NCBI GenBank assembly: GCA_016178625.1
Contig: JACOSX010000029.1
Coordinates: 1 to 33,284, forward strand
Length of the DNA: 33,284 bases
Source of the DNA: Ignavibacteria bacterium
GTDB taxonomy: Bacteria; Bacteroidota; Ignavibacteria; UBA10030; SZUA-254
Direction of reading: 5' to 3'
Below the pieces are notes generated by a model. That model was not told where the DNA came from. It saw nothing but the letters and a program-made list of their open reading frames with translations, and made no database searches. A program made the position numbers and the translations under genes. Below, piece by piece: positions 21,929 through 32,289 of this stretch. Every line of letters begins with the position of its first letter. Position 1 is the first letter of the stretch.

Positions 21929-21973
21929 TTACTTCATCAGAACAATCTTCCGTGTTGCCTGGTAGAGTTGTTT
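21929..21973 (-). repeat. 45-base shared 3' end of T9SS genes, copy B
   Basis: It differs from 15546-15590 at a single position. The similarity drops abruptly on both sides at nucleotide level. Confidence 0.85.
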
Positions 21974-24900
21974 GCCGGATGAATTTGTGACCATCATCCG
22001 CGCATAATAAATACTGCTCGGTGTGTTACCCGCATCCCATGTTGCCGTGTAACTGCCGGGTAATTTCTCCTCGTTCACTAATGTTGCCAGCTCACGTCCC
22101 AGAATATCATATACCTTTAGTGTCACCCATCCTACATCCGCGATCCGTAATCCAAATGTTGTCATCGGGTTAAAGGGGTTGGGGTAGTTCGGTTCTAAAG
22201 CAAACTTTAAGGGAACTGATGAGGAGAATGCAGAAGTTGTAAGAGTCATCGTCAATGGCTGATGTGCTATGATTGCTTGCCCCCTAGACCGGAGTACAAT
22301 TTCTTTGCCGTCGATGTTCAATGTGAATGGTTGTTCTTGCCCGCCGTGGTGGGCTTGCTCGTGAATGTTCCATTTGATCGTCAATGGATAGCTGACTCCT
22401 TGCATGGTAATTGGAAATTCATCTGCACCGGAAGTATTGCCCATCGCCAACAATCGTTGAGAAGCAAATCGCACGTCGAACGCACCTTCGGGAGGTGATG
22501 GAGGAAGATCAAACCGTTCCGGTGCAATAATTCCATCACGTTCTTGTATATAATAGAGTGTTTGCGTGTGGTTCTCGGCATCTGTGAATGTCAATGCATT
22601 GAGCTGAGAAGACACTCCTCCTTTTTCGGGTGGTGCAATCGGTTCCGCGTTATTTTGGAAGGATGTTAACACGAGCTTCCCTGCTTGCGACGTTTTCACC
22701 CAGTATGCTTCACCCGGCTCTATTGTTGATGAGGCGACATAGCTTCCATTAAACCCGTAATAGCTCGATGTCACGATTCCTGTCGGTATGCTCTTCACCG
22801 CTGCAACATTGATCCTGCTTGTGATCGATCCGATGATGTTCCATCCCACTTGAACATCGACCGTGTCTCTCCGAATCGGTGAGCCGGTGAGTGTTATGGA
22901 GGTTGGTGATCCAAATTTCACCCAATAACCAACACCAGGGTCGAGAGTATCCTTAATTGTATATGCGCTGCCTTCGAACGCAAATGCATGGGACGTGGCT
23001 GAGGGATAGACAACAGCTGTCCTCCCATCTGCCACGCCGACTGGAAGAGAGACGAGGTTCCAATCACTAACAACCGAGGAGGAGACAGTGGCTGTGAGTG
23101 GAGGATCGCCGATGAAGAGGTCATCGATATACCATCCGTCTGCATTGTTCGTTCCATTCGTCGAGAGACGGAACCGTACGGCCACCGTATCTCCAGCGTA
23201 GGCTGAAAGAGTAAATGCGTCAGTGAACCAATCCCCCGGATCGGCGTGACTGTCCTGCCACTCAGGGTGCATCGTCATATTGTATACTTTTAGAACAGAA
23301 AATGTTTTGCGCCCATCCTTGCTGATTTCCACAAACCCAAAATCGGCGAAGGCAATGATCGCAATGTGGCTGAATTGAAGAATCGGATTTGTGCCAAGGA
23401 CGACAGGAGGGGTCTGAAAATACGTTACAGAACCATCGGCATAGTTCCCTACCGGACTATCAGTAAAACTCTTCTCTCCGCTCGCTGCAATGCTCGATGT
23501 TGAATCCCACGTACCTGTGCGGTAAATAGTTTCTAACGATGATTCAAAGCCTTCATTGTAATTCACAAAGAGACCTCCATATCCTGTCAATGTCGGGGTG
23601 AAGGTGCTGTAGTGCGTTGGGGCTTCATTATCGCTGACTTGGATAGTATAAGAATGATATCCGACAACCGAATCGAGATAACTACGGTTCTGTCCTGTGT
23701 CAGCGGAAGTCTGAGAGATACTGTGAACGTACAACCCATCGCGATAGATCAAGACTTCTGCAAGATCGTTCAACGGAGTGTTATCGAGTTGACGGGAAGG
23801 ATTGGTCCATGTGAGTAAAATTCCTCCGGTTGCGTCGACAACATTAAATGCCGCAGGCGGTTGAGGCTGAGCATGTCCGCCGGCGTACGCACCTGCACTG
23901 GTTGCACCGCTCGAATCAGAGGGAACGACAGCGCCCAGTGTATACGTGTAATATTGGTGTTGTGTCCGACCTCCATCAATATACGTCTGTACCCCTGAAT
24001 CGACTTCGGCAATGAACGCTCCATCACGATAGATATGTATCTTGAAATTGGAAAGAGGGGCTCCCGAAACTAATGTTGAAGGATCGGTCCACGTTAGTGT
24101 TACACTTGTTGGAGTCTGATAATCGCTGTAGGCAGAGAATGGCGCGGGCAAGTTCGGCGCGTTATAATCGAGATCGACAATGTATAACCCACTGTCCTCA
24201 TCGCCGATAATAATTTGTCCCGAAGGGAAAAACGGATATGCAGACCACGCGCCGTTATAGGAGGAAGGATCGCCGCTTGGGTACGTATCATAACCGCCAA
24301 CCTCCACCGGATGCGTTGGGTCTGTGATGTCAACAACTCGCAATCCTGCCGTATAGTACGACATGACAGCGAGGTTCCCCTTGACGAACACGTTGTGCAC
24401 AATGGCTGTAGGACTTCCCTGATATTCAGCAACTTTTGGAAACGAGGGGGCTGTCTGGAGATTCCAGATCTTGAGTGTTTTCGGTGTGGAATTGATTTCG
24501 TCAGTTGTAAGGAGATACTTCCCATCGGTTGTTGTCGCGCAGTTATGCGTACCAGCTCCAGTATAGGTGAATCGATAGAGGAATTGCGGATTGGTTTTCA
24601 CGCGCACGTCGACAATATCGATGCCGCCATTGTTTATGGTCGCCGCGTAGATCGTGTCATTGCGAACGAAACAGTCATGGACGTACCGTTGCTCATATGC
24701 TGATTGGTACACTGGGTTTACAGGGTCAGCGAGACTGAAGATAACAATGCCGCCTGCCGACCACCCTGCACATCCGTTGAGATACATATAGCCGTCTCTG
24801 ATGTGCAACGAATGCGACCGTGAGGTATTGTTCCCCGACTGGGAATAGGTGAAGTTCTTTACGAGATGCGCGGAATCGGGTAAGTAAGATAGATCAATGA

Positions 24901-25243
24901 TTTGTGTTCCACCACCGCCCTCACTTACCACGTATGCATAGTGTGACCACACCTGGATCTCTCGCCAAATCGAACACACGCCCGGAATGAATGATCGCTC
25001 GATCGGCGATGCCGAGTTCGTAATCTCCACAATCGAAGTACCGCAGTAGCTGCCGAGGATTGCGTACTCGCGATGAGAGACGGTATCTGTCCATCCCCAG
25101 CATCCTGATACGTACGACCCACCACTCGGTGGAATATAATGTGCAAGGAACCGAACAGCCCCAATTGGTTGTGAAAATGCCCACGAGGCAACAACCAAGA
25201 TGGAGAACGGGAGGAGGTAGAGATACCTACGATAGCGGTTCAT
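21929..25243 (-). CDS. T9SS-secreted LVIVD-repeat (choice-of-anchor B-type) protein with Fn3 domains
   Basis: The 1104-residue protein has a signal peptide (about 1-24), an LVIVD-type beta-propeller (about 30-370; blades such as TQIIDLSYLPDS, GGIVIFSLADPVNPV, GIDIVDV, GLRVVDITDPTHPVEVGGY), two Fn3-like domains (about 375-465 and 470-560), a jelly-roll-like region (about 575-710; QFSHIAIIAFADFGFVEIS), further beta-rich sequence, and a C-terminal T9SS sorting domain with YPNPFNP, VYDILGREL and SIYYARM. It should cross the outer membrane by type IX secretion and be held at the surface or released. Function is unknown; propellers of this class are usually binding or scaffold modules. It has its own promoter candidate at 25303-25331. 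Confidence 0.88.
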   Translation of the reverse strand: MNRYRRYLYLLPFSILVVASWAFSQPIGAVRFLAHYIPPSGGSYVSGCWGWTDTVSHREYAILGSYCGTSIVEITNSASPIERSFIPGVCSIWREIQVWSHYAYVVSEGGGGTQIIDLSYLPDSAHLVKNFTYSQSGNNTSRSHSLHIRDGYMYLNGCAGWSAGGIVIFSLADPVNPVYQSAYEQRYVHDCFVRNDTIYAATINNGGIDIVDVRVKTNPQFLYRFTYTGAGTHNCATTTDGKYLLTTDEINSTPKTLKIWNLQTAPSFPKVAEYQGSPTAIVHNVFVKGNLAVMSYYTAGLRVVDITDPTHPVEVGGYDTYPSGDPSSYNGAWSAYPFFPSGQIIIGDEDSGLYIVDLDYNAPNLPAPFSAYSDYQTPTSVTLTWTDPSTLVSGAPLSNFKIHIYRDGAFIAEVDSGVQTYIDGGRTQHQYYTYTLGAVVPSDSSGATSAGAYAGGHAQPQPPAAFNVVDATGGILLTWTNPSRQLDNTPLNDLAEVLIYRDGLYVHSISQTSADTGQNRSYLDSVVGYHSYTIQVSDNEAPTHYSTFTPTLTGYGGLFVNYNEGFESSLETIYRTGTWDSTSSIAASGEKSFTDSPVGNYADGSVTYFQTPPVVLGTNPILQFSHIAIIAFADFGFVEISKDGRKTFSVLKVYNMTMHPEWQDSHADPGDWFTDAFTLSAYAGDTVAVRFRLSTNGTNNADGWYIDDLFIGDPPLTATVSSSVVSDWNLVSLPVGVADGRTAVVYPSATSHAFAFEGSAYTIKDTLDPGVGYWVKFGSPTSITLTGSPIRRDTVDVQVGWNIIGSITSRINVAAVKSIPTGIVTSSYYGFNGSYVASSTIEPGEAYWVKTSQAGKLVLTSFQNNAEPIAPPEKGGVSSQLNALTFTDAENHTQTLYYIQERDGIIAPERFDLPPSPPEGAFDVRFASQRLLAMGNTSGADEFPITMQGVSYPLTIKWNIHEQAHHGGQEQPFTLNIDGKEIVLRSRGQAIIAHQPLTMTLTTSAFSSSVPLKFALEPNYPNPFNPMTTFGLRIADVGWVTLKVYDILGRELATLVNEEKLPGSYTATWDAGNTPSSIYYARMMVTNSSGKQLYQATRKIVLMK

Positions 25244-26918: not shown

Positions 26919-27470
26919 GTGAAAGAGAAGGTAAAAATCGTATGGGATAATATAAAGAAACTCGTCGATCGTTATCCGGTAGTCATCGCTGCAGTTGTCA
27001 TCTATCTGTATTATCTCCTTACCTCAGTGAACTTTTTCAAGCACGAAAAGGAGGTGCGTTCATTCTTTGATTACATCATGCAATTCGATTCATTGTTCTT
27101 CCTCTGGATCGCAGCTGCCGCACTCCTGCAATTGCAGAGGGTACGCAAATCGCATCGAGAGGAGGAAGGCCGACGTCACCAAGTCGAACGCGTGCTCGAT
27201 CGTCAGCAGATCTATAGCCAGTTGGTCAATGATATCACCATGCTGTTGCAGGATAGCGTCAATAATCCTCTTGCTGTCATATCGGTGACGACTCAGGAAA
27301 TTCGGCGGCGATTTGAAAAAGATGTGGAAATCATGCGGTGGCTTGACCGTATCGACGGCGCTATGAAACGGATCCATAATACGATCCGCGATCTCCAGGC
27401 TTACGAAGCACAAAAACTCATCGAATCTTCCAACGAAGTGATGAGGCAAAAGGAAGGCGAAACGCGATGA
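26919..27470 (+). CDS. Small membrane protein with DHp-like helices lacking the phospho-histidine
   Basis: The 183-residue product starts at a GTG with AAGAGGAG as ribosome site. Two membrane helices (about 20-38 and 56-72) are followed by a charged coiled segment and a helical pair resembling a histidine-kinase dimerisation domain: ITMLLQDSVNNPLAVISVTTQEIRRRF (around 106-132), then RIDGAMKRIHNTIRDLQAYE. The NNPLAV core is typical of HEINNPL boxes, but the expected His is D112 and the expected Glu is S113. There is no ATPase domain. It may dimerise, act as a decoy or scaffold for a kinase, or be a phosphotransfer relic. Residues after 165 are polar and unstructured-looking. Function is unknown. 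Confidence 0.75.
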   Translation: MKEKVKIVWDNIKKLVDRYPVVIAAVVIYLYYLLTSVNFFKHEKEVRSFFDYIMQFDSLFFLWIAAAALLQLQRVRKSHREEEGRRHQVERVLDRQQIYSQLVNDITMLLQDSVNNPLAVISVTTQEIRRRFEKDVEIMRWLDRIDGAMKRIHNTIRDLQAYEAQKLIESSNEVMRQKEGETR

Positions 27471-27556: not shown

Positions 27557-28651
27557 CTATTCCCACCAAGCGATGACCTTCGGTTGAGTACCGTTTGTAA
27601 AAATTGACGTGGCATTTTGAATGGCCTTCCTCGAGAAGCGAATGACAGCGCTGCCGTTTCCAAGCACATTGCCGGATGGGCTCGTTGACAAATCAACGAT
27701 TGCCCCATAAACGGTTCCATGGACGTGGACGATGTCGTCCGCAACCACTACACCCATGAAGGTCTGCGTCGCGTTCTCTAAGATCGCGTTTTTAGCGCTG
27801 TTGTGCACGATGAGAATTCCGGTTCCGGTAATGGTCGCGGAGTTCCATGATGGAGAACCCACAGGCATCTCAACGTACGTGACACCACGCAGGGGATATT
27901 TGAGAAGTGCAGGATTTGTAACGTACTGGCTCCCTGCGATGCCGCTCTGTGCAACTGCTTTCAGTGTTCCCTCGGGATATCCATAACTCTCGCCACCGAA
28001 CACGCTATCGGGTGTATTAGGAAAACCTGGTGGTGGAAAGACTTGTTTAATTTTGACAATGCTTGTGTCCACACTTCCGGATGGAGGTATGTCTACACCA
28101 CCTGACGTGGTCCCCCCAACCTGGCCTGAGCCACCGATTGCAAACGTATCGCCGGTGGTCCAGATTCCGTAGATGCCGGTTCCGGGAATTACATTTCCCG
28201 ATAGGTCATAATTTCTTCCATCGATGATAATACCTCCATTTATTTGATTGGTTGCGTGGAGAGTGAAGAGACCTTTCACTCCAATGGGAAGGAGACCTGG
28301 TGGAAAATAGCAAAACGCCGTCGACGTTGCTGAGGAATCTTGCACAGTACCGGTTGATCGAACACCTATTGCCGTTGATATCCCTGCGAAGGTTGTGTCG
28401 AAGAGTCTCACTGAAACAGTTCCACCTAACATCGTGAGTGAAGAGAAACCGGTTCTCCATGCGTGGTTATAACCAAGTTGGCGCAAGGAAAGATTGACAC
28501 CGCTTTGGGCGATGTTTCGTGCCGATTGCATTTTGAAATACCCCGAGGCATTTGCCACGATTGAAGTGCTTGATGCTTCAATGCGGTAAAGAATCACGCC
28601 AGAGATAATAATAATCCCCGCAACGATCAGTATAATAGCTCTGCCAGTCAT
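27557..28651 (-). CDS. PilX-like pilus assembly protein (third gene of pilin-like trio)
   Basis: A 364-residue protein with one N-terminal membrane helix (about 4-24), then a helical segment with the pattern ANASGYFKMQSARNIAQSGVNLSLRQL, reminiscent of PilX-type minor pilin N-termini. The rest is beta-rich with many Gly and Ser residues (FTLHATNQINGGIIIDG, ILIVHNSAKN, GVVVADDIVHVHGTVYGAIVDL), a pattern like a right-handed beta-helix. No GFTLxE-type prepilin cleavage site is present. It starts three bases after the preceding gene's stop and is the last of three tightly packed genes. Assignment as pilus-related rests on gene order and N-terminal style. Confidence 0.65.
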   Translation of the reverse strand: MTGRAIILIVAGIIIISGVILYRIEASSTSIVANASGYFKMQSARNIAQSGVNLSLRQLGYNHAWRTGFSSLTMLGGTVSVRLFDTTFAGISTAIGVRSTGTVQDSSATSTAFCYFPPGLLPIGVKGLFTLHATNQINGGIIIDGRNYDLSGNVIPGTGIYGIWTTGDTFAIGGSGQVGGTTSGGVDIPPSGSVDTSIVKIKQVFPPPGFPNTPDSVFGGESYGYPEGTLKAVAQSGIAGSQYVTNPALLKYPLRGVTYVEMPVGSPSWNSATITGTGILIVHNSAKNAILENATQTFMGVVVADDIVHVHGTVYGAIVDLSTSPSGNVLGNGSAVIRFSRKAIQNATSIFTNGTQPKVIAWWE

Positions 28652-28654
28652 AAC

Positions 28655-29260
28655 TTATTTGAGATTTTTCGGTCTTATGGTTCTTTCCCAGTAGACGCCC
28701 GGATTAAGCTTTAGATAAGGCATCGTTGTTTCTTTATAAGGTTCCGTGCTTTCCACATTAAGAGCAATCTTAAGAACCTTGATCTGTGACGGTTGAGGAA
28801 TCGGATTTGCTGTGAGGATCGTGTCGAGCATTTTGTAATATGAGAGCCTAAACTGTGTGATCCCCAGATTGATCGATTGGGTTGTGGGCGTGGATCCTTT
28901 TGGAATATACGTACGATACAAAATGTGTGTGTTCAAATTTCGTTTCCCGGAAGGTTTGGTTATGTCAAAATAGTAAATGACTGTATCGATATTCTCTTGG
29001 TTTCTGAAGTCACCGATGAATCTGATCTTATTTGAATCGGCGTACATAATAGAACTATCAAAGCCTCCCAAAACCCGGTATCCCATTTTTCTGAACTCGT
29101 ATTCAAGAATGCTTGTTACCTCCGTGAGATTCGACTGTGTCATCACTTTGACCGTCTGAGTGCCGGCTTTCTCAACGATCGTACTGTTGAAGCCGACGAG
29201 CATAAACAAGACTATGCCGCCTATGACCGCAGAACAAACGACATCAAACATTGAATTCAT
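28655..29260 (-). CDS. PilW-like minor pilin-type protein (second gene of trio)
   Basis: A 201-residue protein with an N-terminal hydrophobic helix (about 7-27, CSAVIGGIVLFMLVGFN) and a following amphipathic stretch (LTEVTSILEYEFRKMGYRVLGG) that resembles PilW-type proteins, where a conserved EFRKMG-like segment follows the helix. The remainder is a beta-rich periplasmic domain with no catalytic motif. The classical prepilin peptidase site is missing. It begins nine bases after the PilV-like gene and three bases before the PilX-like gene, so the three are translated together. Confidence 0.65.
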   Translation of the reverse strand: MNSMFDVVCSAVIGGIVLFMLVGFNSTIVEKAGTQTVKVMTQSNLTEVTSILEYEFRKMGYRVLGGFDSSIMYADSNKIRFIGDFRNQENIDTVIYYFDITKPSGKRNLNTHILYRTYIPKGSTPTTQSINLGITQFRLSYYKMLDTILTANPIPQPSQIKVLKIALNVESTEPYKETTMPYLKLNPGVYWERTIRPKNLK

Positions 29261-29269
29261 AGGGGTTTT

Positions 29270-29812
29270 CTAATAGGTAAATGCATACGATAGCTTTATC
29301 GTATCCGGCATGTACGGACTTATGACCTGCACAGTCATTTTCTTACAGAACGTCTTTACGGCGGAACTCACATCAGGGTTGGTTTCATTTGCATAGTTCA
29401 CAGAAACCTTTACCCGATAACCCTCGGCACGCTGAGTGTTGACGAGGCGATTATAATTCCTATAGTCATCAATGTCGTTCAATGTATATGTTGACCGGTA
29501 TCCGGGAGAGCTTGGCGTGTAAGGGGCGGTTGTTACGAGTGTGTCGGGATTTCCAATAACTTCACCTGCTTCTCGTCCAAGTAATCCGGGGGCAGTCAAC
29601 GAATCAGGCACTAACACGGGCACATTGATCGTATTCTGATCGAACGACTTCGTTTTGGCTTCATCAATGATGGATTGTGCAAGGGAGATTGCAGAAATGT
29701 AATATTCGTTCTGCTCGGCAATTTGGGTGTTGCCTGTCATTAACCTGTTTGAGGAACTCAGGAATGTCCCGAAAATGAAAAGTGCGCCGATTGCCAAGAT
29801 GATATTACTCAT
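29270..29812 (-). CDS. PilV-like minor pilin-type protein (first gene of trio)
   Basis: The 180-residue product has a hydrophobic N-terminal helix (about 3-20) and then EQNEYYISAISLAQSIIDEAKTKSFD, a segment typical of PilV-type proteins. The periplasmic part is short and beta-rich. No GFTLxE motif is seen, so processing by a prepilin peptidase is uncertain. Start ATG at 29812 has only a weak upstream GAGAG. The gene diverges from the assembly ATPase gene at 30211, with about 400 bases between them. Confidence 0.65.
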   Translation of the reverse strand: MSNIILAIGALFIFGTFLSSSNRLMTGNTQIAEQNEYYISAISLAQSIIDEAKTKSFDQNTINVPVLVPDSLTAPGLLGREAGEVIGNPDTLVTTAPYTPSSPGYRSTYTLNDIDDYRNYNRLVNTQRAEGYRVKVSVNYANETNPDVSSAVKTFCKKMTVQVISPYMPDTIKLSYAFTY

Positions 29813-30210
29813 GCAATAACTCTCGAATTAATGTTGTTTCTCACTAAACTATCCCGACATTCTTCTAGTGAAAGGATCAGTTGTTTGGAACAAAATACCT
29901 TCCCTCCATATCTGTGACCATACAATTTACGATAAAAAATGTAACTGTCTGTAACCAAAATCACGAATAGCGGGCGTAATGTATTTGCAATACAATTTCA
30001 ATCACCCGATGCCGTCAGATATATCATTGTCTGACAATAATTGATCAAAGATAGCCACATTTGGTTGCATCTCGCTACTTGCTGGTGTTTTTTATCACAG
30101 GGTTTGTTGCTCATCAATGGAGTCAAGTTATAATTAGTGTATCATACGTGCGAGGTGTCGTCTATACCGCACAATGGATAGTCTCATTCATATATCGAAA
30201 AGAGGGTAAT
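29813..30210. other. Divergent intergenic region between pilin-like operon and assembly ATPase
   Basis: No gene is supported. An in-frame extension of the ATPase gene to a TTG at 30061 would add 50 hydrophobic residues unlike the family, so this is treated as non-coding. A promoter candidate (TTGCTC, 16 bases, TATAAT at 30107-30134) faces the ATPase gene. No clear promoter was found for the pilin-like operon. Confidence 0.5.
30107..30134 (+). promoter_or_regulatory. Candidate promoter of the assembly ATPase gene
   Basis: TTGCTC and a perfect TATAAT are 16 bases apart; the transcript would carry a leader of about 70 bases. Confidence 0.4.
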
Positions 30211-32289
30211 ATGTCTACAAATAATGGTAACAATAATGCTACGAAAAAGAATGTGTTTGTCGCATTTAGTAATCTCGTAGCGAGGAAACAAGCATTCTCA
30301 TCCGATGAAGTTGATGATAATAAGAATCTGAGTGTAGTTCCCGGGAACGATGAGGGTGTTGGCGAATCTAAGAATGGCAATGGACAGCCACACGCTGAAC
30401 GTCCGATGTCTTCAGCACTATCCTCAGGAGTAGTGTTTGAGGAAATCCCTTCACCGAACAGGGTAGTTCGTTCAGGAAAAGAGAATGCTGTTGTGGACGA
30501 CACGTTCACCGTGGGAAAAAGAGCTCAAACTCCCCGTCTGAACCAAATCCTTGTTGAGAGCGGAGCTGTTGCAAAAGAGAAGATCGAGGAAGCTCTCGAG
30601 ATGCAACGAAAGATGGCGGACAAGCGCCGTCTGATCGACATCTTGATAGATGATCTTGGTGCTGATCGCGAAGTCATTCTGAAAACAATTGCCCGCTATT
30701 ATTCCTTTGAGTCTGTAGACCCTACACCGGTCTTCGGGAACAAAGAGAAATTGCAGTTCATCCGCCAGTTACTGGATATGTTGCCGCCGCTCTATTATGA
30801 TATGGCAGTGCGGCATAAGGTTCTTCCGTTTGAGCTATATTCAAACGGCTATGATAAACTTATCGTGATTACTCCCGATCCCACGTATCCGGAAGTCCAT
30901 CCGATTGCGCGTGCATTCAAATTCCCTAAATACGAAATCAAGTATGTTAACACCGACCATTGGACGGAACTCTGGCGTCAACTCGCCTTCGATCAAGGAG
31001 CAAAGCAGCTCGGGCTGGATGCGGAGGACGGATTTTCTCAGTACGATAAGGACGAGAGCGAAAAGGAACTCGAGAAATCATTAGAAGAAGAGATCGGTCG
31101 TGGTAAACTTAACGAGGTCATCGAGGCACTTCTTGTTGATGGGGTGAGAACCGGCGCAAGTGATATTCACGTCATCCCCAAAGGTACTCATCGGACGGAA
31201 TTTCATTTCCGGATTGATGGTCGTCTCTCGCTGTGGAGTGCTATCGCCGATGTACGCGCTGAGGCAGTGCTCACGGTCATCAAAGATCGCGGGAAAAATC
31301 TCGATCGATTTGAAAAGTTTCTTTCTCAGGACGGCTTTGCCCAGCGAATGGTTGACAATAAAATGATACGGTTCCGTTTTTCAACTATGCCGATCTACAG
31401 CAGCGATCTTCGCAGCAAGCTTGAATCGATTGTTATCCGTATTCTTCGCGGGGCTGATGCGGCAAACGGCATTGATTCGCTCGGCATGCCCGATTCAACG
31501 AGGGAGAGCTTTGTCAAAGCTATCCGCAAGCCGCAGGGGATCGTGATCTTCACTGGACCAACGGGAAGTGGAAAGAGCACCTCGCAGCTCGCGGCAATCC
31601 AAACAATTATGGATCCGGGAATCAACATCATCACGATTGAAGATCCGGTTGAGTACTTGATCGAAGGATGTCGACAAGTGAAGCTTAATCATAAGCTTGA
31701 TTTTGAAGGAGCGTTGCGTGGATTGTTGCGTCACGATCCCGATGTTGTGATGGTTGGTGAGATGAGAGATAAGACGACCGCGGAAATTGCCGTCAAGCTT
31801 GCGAACACAGGTCACCTCATTTTTTCAACGCTACACACTAATGACTCCGTTGGTGCAATCACCAGACTCTACAATATGGGGATCGAGCCATTTCTTCTCG
31901 CGTACACGATCAATATCGTCGTTGCTCAACGACTTATCCGAAAGCTGTGTGATCGATGCAAGATGCTCGATGAACACGTCGATATCGATTTGCTCATCGA
32001 AGCAGGGTTGACCATGGATGAAATACTCTCTTCGACGATCTACAAGCCAGTAGGTTGCGTGCACTGTATTCGGGGGTACCGAGGACGAATCGGTATCTTC
32101 GAGGCGCTCGCAATGACAAAAGAGATGCGGAAGATTATCTTGAAATCGAAGGACTTCATCGATGAAGACGCGCTGCGCACATTGGCATTGCAGAATGGGA
32201 TGCAGACGCTACGTCAGTCTGCCATCAACCTCGTGAAAAGTGGAGTTACCGCAATCGAAAACGTTGAAGGTATGTTATGCGAAGAGTAA
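30211..32289 (+). CDS. Type IV pilus/type II secretion assembly ATPase (PilB/GspE family)
   Basis: The 692-residue product has a disordered polar N-terminus (about 1-105), an N-terminal MshEN/GspE-N-like domain (about 108-260, RLNQILVESGAV onward) and the secretion ATPase core. Walker A is GPTGSGKS (449-456), the Asp box is ITIEDPVEY, Walker B is around DPDVVMVGEMRD (509-520), and the His box is HLIFSTLHTND. Four cysteines (C580, C583, C616, C619) form the zinc site common to PilB and GspE. It powers assembly of a pilus or pseudopilus at the inner membrane. ATG at 30211 is preceded by AAAAGAGGG. The pilin-like trio diverges from it; no inner-membrane platform gene lies within the window. Confidence 0.93.
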   Translation: MSTNNGNNNATKKNVFVAFSNLVARKQAFSSDEVDDNKNLSVVPGNDEGVGESKNGNGQPHAERPMSSALSSGVVFEEIPSPNRVVRSGKENAVVDDTFTVGKRAQTPRLNQILVESGAVAKEKIEEALEMQRKMADKRRLIDILIDDLGADREVILKTIARYYSFESVDPTPVFGNKEKLQFIRQLLDMLPPLYYDMAVRHKVLPFELYSNGYDKLIVITPDPTYPEVHPIARAFKFPKYEIKYVNTDHWTELWRQLAFDQGAKQLGLDAEDGFSQYDKDESEKELEKSLEEEIGRGKLNEVIEALLVDGVRTGASDIHVIPKGTHRTEFHFRIDGRLSLWSAIADVRAEAVLTVIKDRGKNLDRFEKFLSQDGFAQRMVDNKMIRFRFSTMPIYSSDLRSKLESIVIRILRGADAANGIDSLGMPDSTRESFVKAIRKPQGIVIFTGPTGSGKSTSQLAAIQTIMDPGINIITIEDPVEYLIEGCRQVKLNHKLDFEGALRGLLRHDPDVVMVGEMRDKTTAEIAVKLANTGHLIFSTLHTNDSVGAITRLYNMGIEPFLLAYTINIVVAQRLIRKLCDRCKMLDEHVDIDLLIEAGLTMDEILSSTIYKPVGCVHCIRGYRGRIGIFEALAMTKEMRKIILKSKDFIDEDALRTLALQNGMQTLRQSAINLVKSGVTAIENVEGMLCEE

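Follow-up and report, generated by a model that had tools for sequence, protein, structure and literature searches.

The question raised by this locus is how pilin-like proteins that carry no prepilin cleavage site come to be encoded beside a pilus ATPase whose motifs are intact. The window, by which we mean the whole 33,284-nucleotide stretch of DNA that was analysed, is one contig (JACOSX010000029.1, our C143) of the 3.36-Mb genome of an Ignavibacteria bacterium (GCA_016178625.1; 177 contigs, 97% complete). A trio of open reading frames (ORFs) on its minus strand, P3 (29270..29812, 180 residues), P2 (28655..29260, 201 residues) and P1 (27557..28651, 364 residues), diverges from the gene of a PilB-type ATPase on the plus strand (30208..32289), an arrangement that the earlier note had described correctly. 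On the best reading, translation yields these pilins in an essentially mature state, and no prepilin peptidase is required. We give a probability close to four in five that the window holds an accessory cassette of a machine resembling type IVa pili, with leaderless pilins, the cassette consisting of a V-W-X tip complex and a PilB of its own. The earlier note had suggested a pilus or pseudopilus of unusual type, or pilins processed differently, a suggestion supported by the lack of leaders and, in most carriers, of a detectable peptidase; our reading is stronger, namely that there would be nothing to process, since the pilins start at the mature position.

Between the upstream in-frame stop and the start codon, P3, P2 and P1 have only five, three and one codons, respectively, and therefore a leader peptide cannot be encoded; better start sites, which the earlier note thought might reveal normal prepilin motifs, are thus unavailable to any of the three. 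The missing cleavage motif, which that note had noticed in the window proteins, extends to their relatives: a strict prepilin site within the first 45 residues occurs in none of 131 homologues (0/44 V, 0/43 W and 0/44 X). These proteins were gathered from relatives, named loci and genomes of the phylum, together with 144 members of a fourth family, the MGQQQLL proteins of the core operon described below, and identical sequences and ORFs open at their 5' end were dropped before counting. Only two of the 144 MGQQQLL proteins contain a strict site, in both cases at the far end of the helix, where it is no true site. An absence that is kept across homologues in this way is not a matter of chance. 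As far as sequence can tell, the leaderless start is a property of all four families, in which the upstream stop lies at a median of 3 to 6 codons. The idea that start codons were misread and that normal leaders lie upstream is already refuted for P1-P3 and, for the families at large, has a probability close to nil: some homologues do have a longer ORF under the first-start rule, and three MGQQQLL, one V, three W and seven X rows were flagged as blurring the picture, either for that reason or for a late hydrophobic stretch, but in the long rows so flagged the leader junction never shows a strict site.

The remaining parts of a pilus machine, which the earlier note had proposed to look for outside the window, are found on contig C72 of the same genome, where the gene order is a 125-residue MGQQQLL protein, PilC, PilB, V, W, X, PilT, a 529-residue PilM/PilN-like protein, a PilO-like protein and a secretin; no pilin of this operon has a leader. 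PilT exceeds the curated cut-off of its model (TIGR01420, 322.7 bits against 319.1), PilC matches PF00482 at 9.9e-26 and NF052607 at 6.6e-38, the latter under that model's equivalog cut-off, and the secretin matches PF00263 at 1.6e-27 and TIGR02515 at 4e-22, again under the cut-off of the second model. The PilN part of the 529-residue protein is related to Myxococcus xanthus PilN (3jc8, E=2.3e-7), its PilM part is recognised solely through Amuc_1101 (8.1e-9, under the cut-off), which matches the C-terminal part, and PilM and PilN apparently are fused into one protein; the PilO-like protein has a weak PilO match (0.013). The gene of the platform protein, PilC/GspF, belongs to the C72 operon, and the window cassette has none. 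The same order, with or without V-W-X inside the operon, recurs in metagenome-assembled genomes (MAGs) of Melioribacter roseus and in Stygiobacter, Ca. Kryptonium, Ca. Chrysopegis and others, the named carrier genomes being mostly Ignavibacteria and related Bacteroidota, and MGQQQLL proteins were also met in one Calditrichota and one KSB1 genome. In Ca. Chrysopegis kryptomonas, PilB is split into two ORFs (L163 11887-12970), perhaps by a frameshift or a sequencing error.

The MGQQQLL protein deserves particular attention, as its place, copy number and conservation point to the major pilin. Sixty-four of the 66 rows of its alignment begin MGQQQL or MGQQQM, and conservation is highest at the N-terminus (mean majority fraction 0.93 for residues 1-12 against 0.39 for residues 76-128), which argues against a discarded signal peptide. 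In Ignavibacteria as in other families belonging to the phylum, single-contig genomes included, this N-terminus is encoded from the start codon onwards, and the proteins have no Glu5. The paper on the Melioribacter genome records pilB, pilC, pilT and pilQ as present and pilA and pilD as missing, at least in its section on these genes (PMC3534657), and the MGQQQLL protein is likely to be the pilin absent from that account. Two more genes of the family lie away from the core operon in the window's own genome, on C17 (L190) and on C25 (L191), the second with an altered N-terminus and near a contig end.

If leaders are lacking, is there a peptidase at all? The window's genome holds on contig C30 a canonical operon with GspE, GspF, a secretin, I/J/K-like pilins bearing regular prepilin sites (GFTMQE, GYTLLE and GFSLTE) and the sole prepilin peptidase detected in the genome; this operon is a control within the same cell. 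Among 100 relatives, the MGQQQLL protein was found in 92, P2 homologues in 88, PF00482 in 86 and the peptidase family PF01478 in 8 (6 above the cut-off), and 85 of the 92 carriers of MGQQQLL have no PF01478 match, the other 7 having a match of any strength. The picture is similar in a sample of 395 genomes of the phylum (MGQQQLL in 130, PF01478 in 56, both in 18), where 112 of the 130 carriers have no peptidase match and the two families show no association (odds ratio 0.96, p=1). Thirty-five carriers of the system, among them both MAGs of Melioribacter roseus, Ca. Kryptonium and Ca. Chrysopegis, were chosen for a further search; 30 gave no match, and G047 and G013, as judged by identical coordinates, appear again as two of the five positives. 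One single-contig genome of 3,300,414 bases (G278), whose PilB groups with that of M. roseus in the tree, is also without a peptidase match. The search itself has the sensitivity expected of it, retrieving the peptidase in 12 of 14 control genomes. The peptidase tracks canonical-type GspF (5/6 genomes, p=4e-6) and N_methyl prepilins (5/10, p=2e-4) and does not track MGQQQLL (p=0.5); at ten of the 12 peptidase loci inspected, canonical GFxLxE prepilins lie beside it, and at the other two (L206 and L213) no canonical prepilin was seen. In one relative with no peptidase match, three N_methyl-type prepilins stand in a row (G006:C237:2905-3858), which could reflect an incomplete assembly or a foreign contig.

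Two explanations that would keep a peptidase in play were weighed against these counts. The first, that the single C30 peptidase processes the leaderless pilins, is made conceivable by the very presence of this gene in the window's genome; the pilins offer it no leader to cut, and as a general processor it was rejected on the lack of a match in 85 of the 92 relatives and 112 of the 130 phylum genomes that carry the MGQQQLL protein, so that we regard it as very improbable. The second supposes that the pilins keep a very short leader, two to four residues with glycine as the last (MG, MSG or MNTG), which is cut by a highly divergent peptidase that escapes recognition. In its favour, glycine occupies residue 2 in 140 of 144 MGQQQLL, 15 of 44 V and 20 of 44 X proteins, and many V proteins begin MNTGQ. 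On the other hand, P3 has no such glycine near its N-terminus, A24 peptidases occur where canonical prepilins occur, and the leaders treated in one published account are, in the part concerned, 6-26 residues long (PMC4471445). Nor does a conserved new peptidase gene adjoin the operon: 215 unassigned ORFs from 33 operon loci (L086-L165) were clustered, only three families recurred in at least six loci (a sensor kinase in 17, a response regulator in 14 and another large gene in 6), and the candidate was rejected. We consider a tiny leader unlikely, and retain leaderless translation as the preferred reading. The two regulatory genes are an observation in their own right: of the 33 loci, 17 have a sensor-kinase-like gene close to the pilus operon, and 14 have a response regulator there.

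Are the proteins pilins in the first place? The Pfam and NCBIfam models put a name, among the trio and the ATPase, on the ATPase alone; P1-P3 gave no match at E<=1 apart from a meaningless FecR_C hit (0.1) in P2. The PilV/PilW/PilX labels of the earlier note thus receive no backing from these profiles, and it is the predicted fold that carries the relation to minor pilins in the case of P2. Its AlphaFold2 model, made from 16 sequences (predicted local distance difference test, pLDDT, 89.2), has a helix over residues 2-57 followed by a beta domain; in VIA-align, type IV pilins or pseudopilins (XcpW, EpsJ, GspJ and TTHA1219) fill all of the top ten rows at Z 12.3 to 10.5, and the next row, unrelated, drops to Z 4.7. 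Against a full-length XcpW model, residues 1-201 of P2 align with residues 1-197, and a profile search of the PDB returned 5g23 (E=0.0032). On its modelled fold, which agrees with the GspJ fold of XcpW, EpsJ and GspJ, P2 is a GspJ/PilW-like minor pilin. P3, aligned with 14 homologues from related operons, and P1, covered by an X-family hidden Markov model (HMM) built from related operons, would be GspI/PilV-like and GspK/PilX-like according to gene order and N-terminal pattern, neither having a significant profile match, and the V family found no match in the PDB profile search. The C-terminus of P1 (...WWE) has the W-x-E form common to the X proteins inspected in related loci. As to the MGQQQLL protein, its model (pLDDT 82.3; predicted template modelling score 0.64) shows a helix over residues 2-55 and four strands, and VIA-align has nothing but type IV pilins in its first 13 rows (Z 9.2 to 6.4). 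Residue 1 of full-length pilins falls on residue 4 (1oqw) or 2 (5vxx) of this model, which places the start codon no more than about three residues away from the canonical cut. The pilin fold, in which a long helix at the N-terminus packs against a beta-sheet head, is thereby predicted for both the MGQQQLL protein and P2.

It might still be argued that these are class I secreted or static membrane proteins resembling pilins, or the relics of a decaying machine, as their hydrophobic N-termini also resemble signal peptides and their sequence profiles fall short of the pilin families. However, the N-terminal helix is the best conserved part, unlike a discarded signal peptide, the predicted folds match pilins, the linkage to PilC, PilB, PilT, PilN and the secretin is conserved, and the ATPase motifs are intact, so that this explanation appears improbable to us. 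The window ATPase matches T2SSE in Pfam at E=4.3e-98 and PilB (TIGR02538) in NCBIfam with 409.9 bits, under the equivalog cut-off of 675.65, and its Walker A, MVGEMRD, STLHTND and CxxC-pair motifs are all present, in agreement with the PilB/GspE-type assignment made earlier. Its first in-frame start is TTG 30061, and ATG 30208, a later alternative, is the more likely one.

The place of the window set relative to the core operon is clarified by its copies. V-W-X triplets also occur outside core operons, with or without PilB, and the window's genome has one further set with PilB, on C90, to whose copy the window P2 is 40% identical, against 28% to the C72 copy. The divergent layout, with its promoter region at 29813..30207, is repeated in the relative G010 (L047), and another relative, G007, carries six P2 homologues and two PF00482 matches, as expected for a single two-domain PilC gene. 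Six cassette ATPases, including that of the window, form one clade (support 100/96) nested among the PilBs of leaderless systems and apart from the window genome's canonical GspE. Accordingly, we take the window set for an accessory copy of the V-W-X-PilB genes of the larger operon elsewhere in the genome, and from the cassette copies, their layouts and the ATPase clade we infer that they may provide interchangeable tip complexes and a dedicated extension motor on a shared platform. The same genome also encodes on C81 an orphan GspE-like ATPase (L044 3263-4675) with no pilin genes, which sits on a very long branch and groups with no ATPase set; matches of this type, with similar open frames of 420-450 residues, occur in many relatives.

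One may then picture the machine as follows. Each pilin would insert its N-terminal hydrophobic helix in the inner membrane, with the globular domain outside, and would lose at most its initiator methionine; PilB and PilC would pull the pilins into a filament, a V-W-X tip priming its assembly, and this filament would leave through the PilQ-like secretin and be retracted by PilT, while different V-W-X(-PilB) cassettes would place alternative tips on one platform. Of the elements of this picture, the leaderless starts, the conserved operon, the lack of the peptidase in most carriers and the kinship of the ATPases are seen in the sequences themselves, and the pilin folds in predicted models. It also seems likely that we are dealing with a phylum-wide branch of type IV pili that dispenses with prepilin processing, removal of methionine by the ordinary methionine aminopeptidase being the most that happens, and that exchanges its tips through several V-W-X cassettes, some with a private ATPase, on one platform.

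Several points weigh against this reading. The profile links to known pilins are weak, a Geobacter pilin being reached at E=0.022 and 0.064, and hhalign comparisons of the leaderless with the canonical pilin families of the same genome all scored weakly, X against K standing out as the best of four at a still weak E=0.0087. Foldseek alone gave no match below 0.001 for the MGQQQLL or the P2 model, and VIA-align 2 re-examines Foldseek's own matches only. The N-termini of the MGQQQLL and V proteins have no positive charge that might set an N-in topology, and Gly-1 may survive in the conserved glycine close to the N-terminus (MG, MNTG, MSG). There is, besides, a prepilin peptidase in the window's own genome, in its canonical operon; moreover, five of the 100 relatives have an N_methyl match and no peptidase match, so the peptidase searches may miss some cases where assemblies are incomplete. 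Canonical tip-capping subunits are also described without Glu5 in the passages of PMC10191384 devoted to them, and therefore P1 alone would be unremarkable in that respect. Finally, the filament itself is a predicted one.

How does this system compare with known ones? With the type IVa pili of Myxococcus xanthus and Thermus it has in common an operon that unites homologues of the extension ATPase, the platform and the retraction ATPase with a PilN-like protein and a secretin, together with lollipop pilins, here as predicted; it differs in that no pilin has a class III signal peptide, the genome usually has no prepilin peptidase, PilM and PilN apparently form one 529-residue protein and the predicted major pilin has no Glu5. 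The minor pseudopilins of the type II secretion system (T2SS) are encoded in an I-J-K type order, as here. Further likenesses to GspI-GspJ-GspK (XcpV-W-X) are the GspJ/XcpW fold predicted for P2 and, in 14 of 16 W rows, an acidic sixth residue, which becomes residue 5 if the initiator methionine is removed; here, in contrast, the proteins are leaderless, the cassette has its own ATPase, and the core operon has a PilT, which T2SS are stated to have lost in the relevant portion of PMC10191384. The canonical operon on C30 equips the same cell with GspE, GspF, a secretin and I/J/K-like pilins, whereas its prepilins have sites and it holds the only peptidase. MSHA loci are likewise without their own prepilin peptidase, but MSHA genomes may borrow one from another system, according to the section of PMC6668835 that treats them, whereas most genomes here have none detectable; the same source, by Denise et al., also notes oddly placed Bacteroidetes 'T2SS'. 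Sections of two papers (PMC4471445, PMC10191384) present the class III signal peptide and its peptidase as defining and invariably present in type IV filaments. The system at hand has the extension ATPase and the platform protein and has neither the signal peptide nor a dedicated peptidase, so we do not file it as an ordinary member; it is best called a variant form that would work like a type IVa pilus. In the open-licence papers of PubMed Central, preprints excluded, our searches turned up no account of this system or of type IV pilins that lack leaders.

Two neighbours of the cassette should be mentioned. Adjoining it on the plus strand (26919-27470) is the gene of a 183-residue, apparently membrane-anchored protein with a HisKA-like dimerisation region (E=1.4e-5, just below the cut-off) and no kinase ATPase domain; ORFs near this size adjoin V-W-X in the relatives G004 (L051) and G010 (L047). 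Farther away, on the minus strand (21929-25243), lies the gene of a choice-of-anchor B family protein (221.6 bits against a cut-off of 100) with a C-terminal domain resembling the type A sorting domain of the type IX secretion system, under the cut-off of its model, and comparable ORFs flank the cassette in G004 (L051).

If leaderless translation is the true state of these pilins, a textbook rule of type IV pili is broken: leader removal, N-methylation and Glu5 would not be required for assembly. It would also explain genomes that possess pilB, pilC, pilT and pilQ and no pilA or pilD, and it would mean that searches for prepilin motifs overlook pili in many Bacteroidota. The question of what sets the orientation of a pilin and permits its extraction from the membrane, when there is no basic leader to cut, would thereby become testable.

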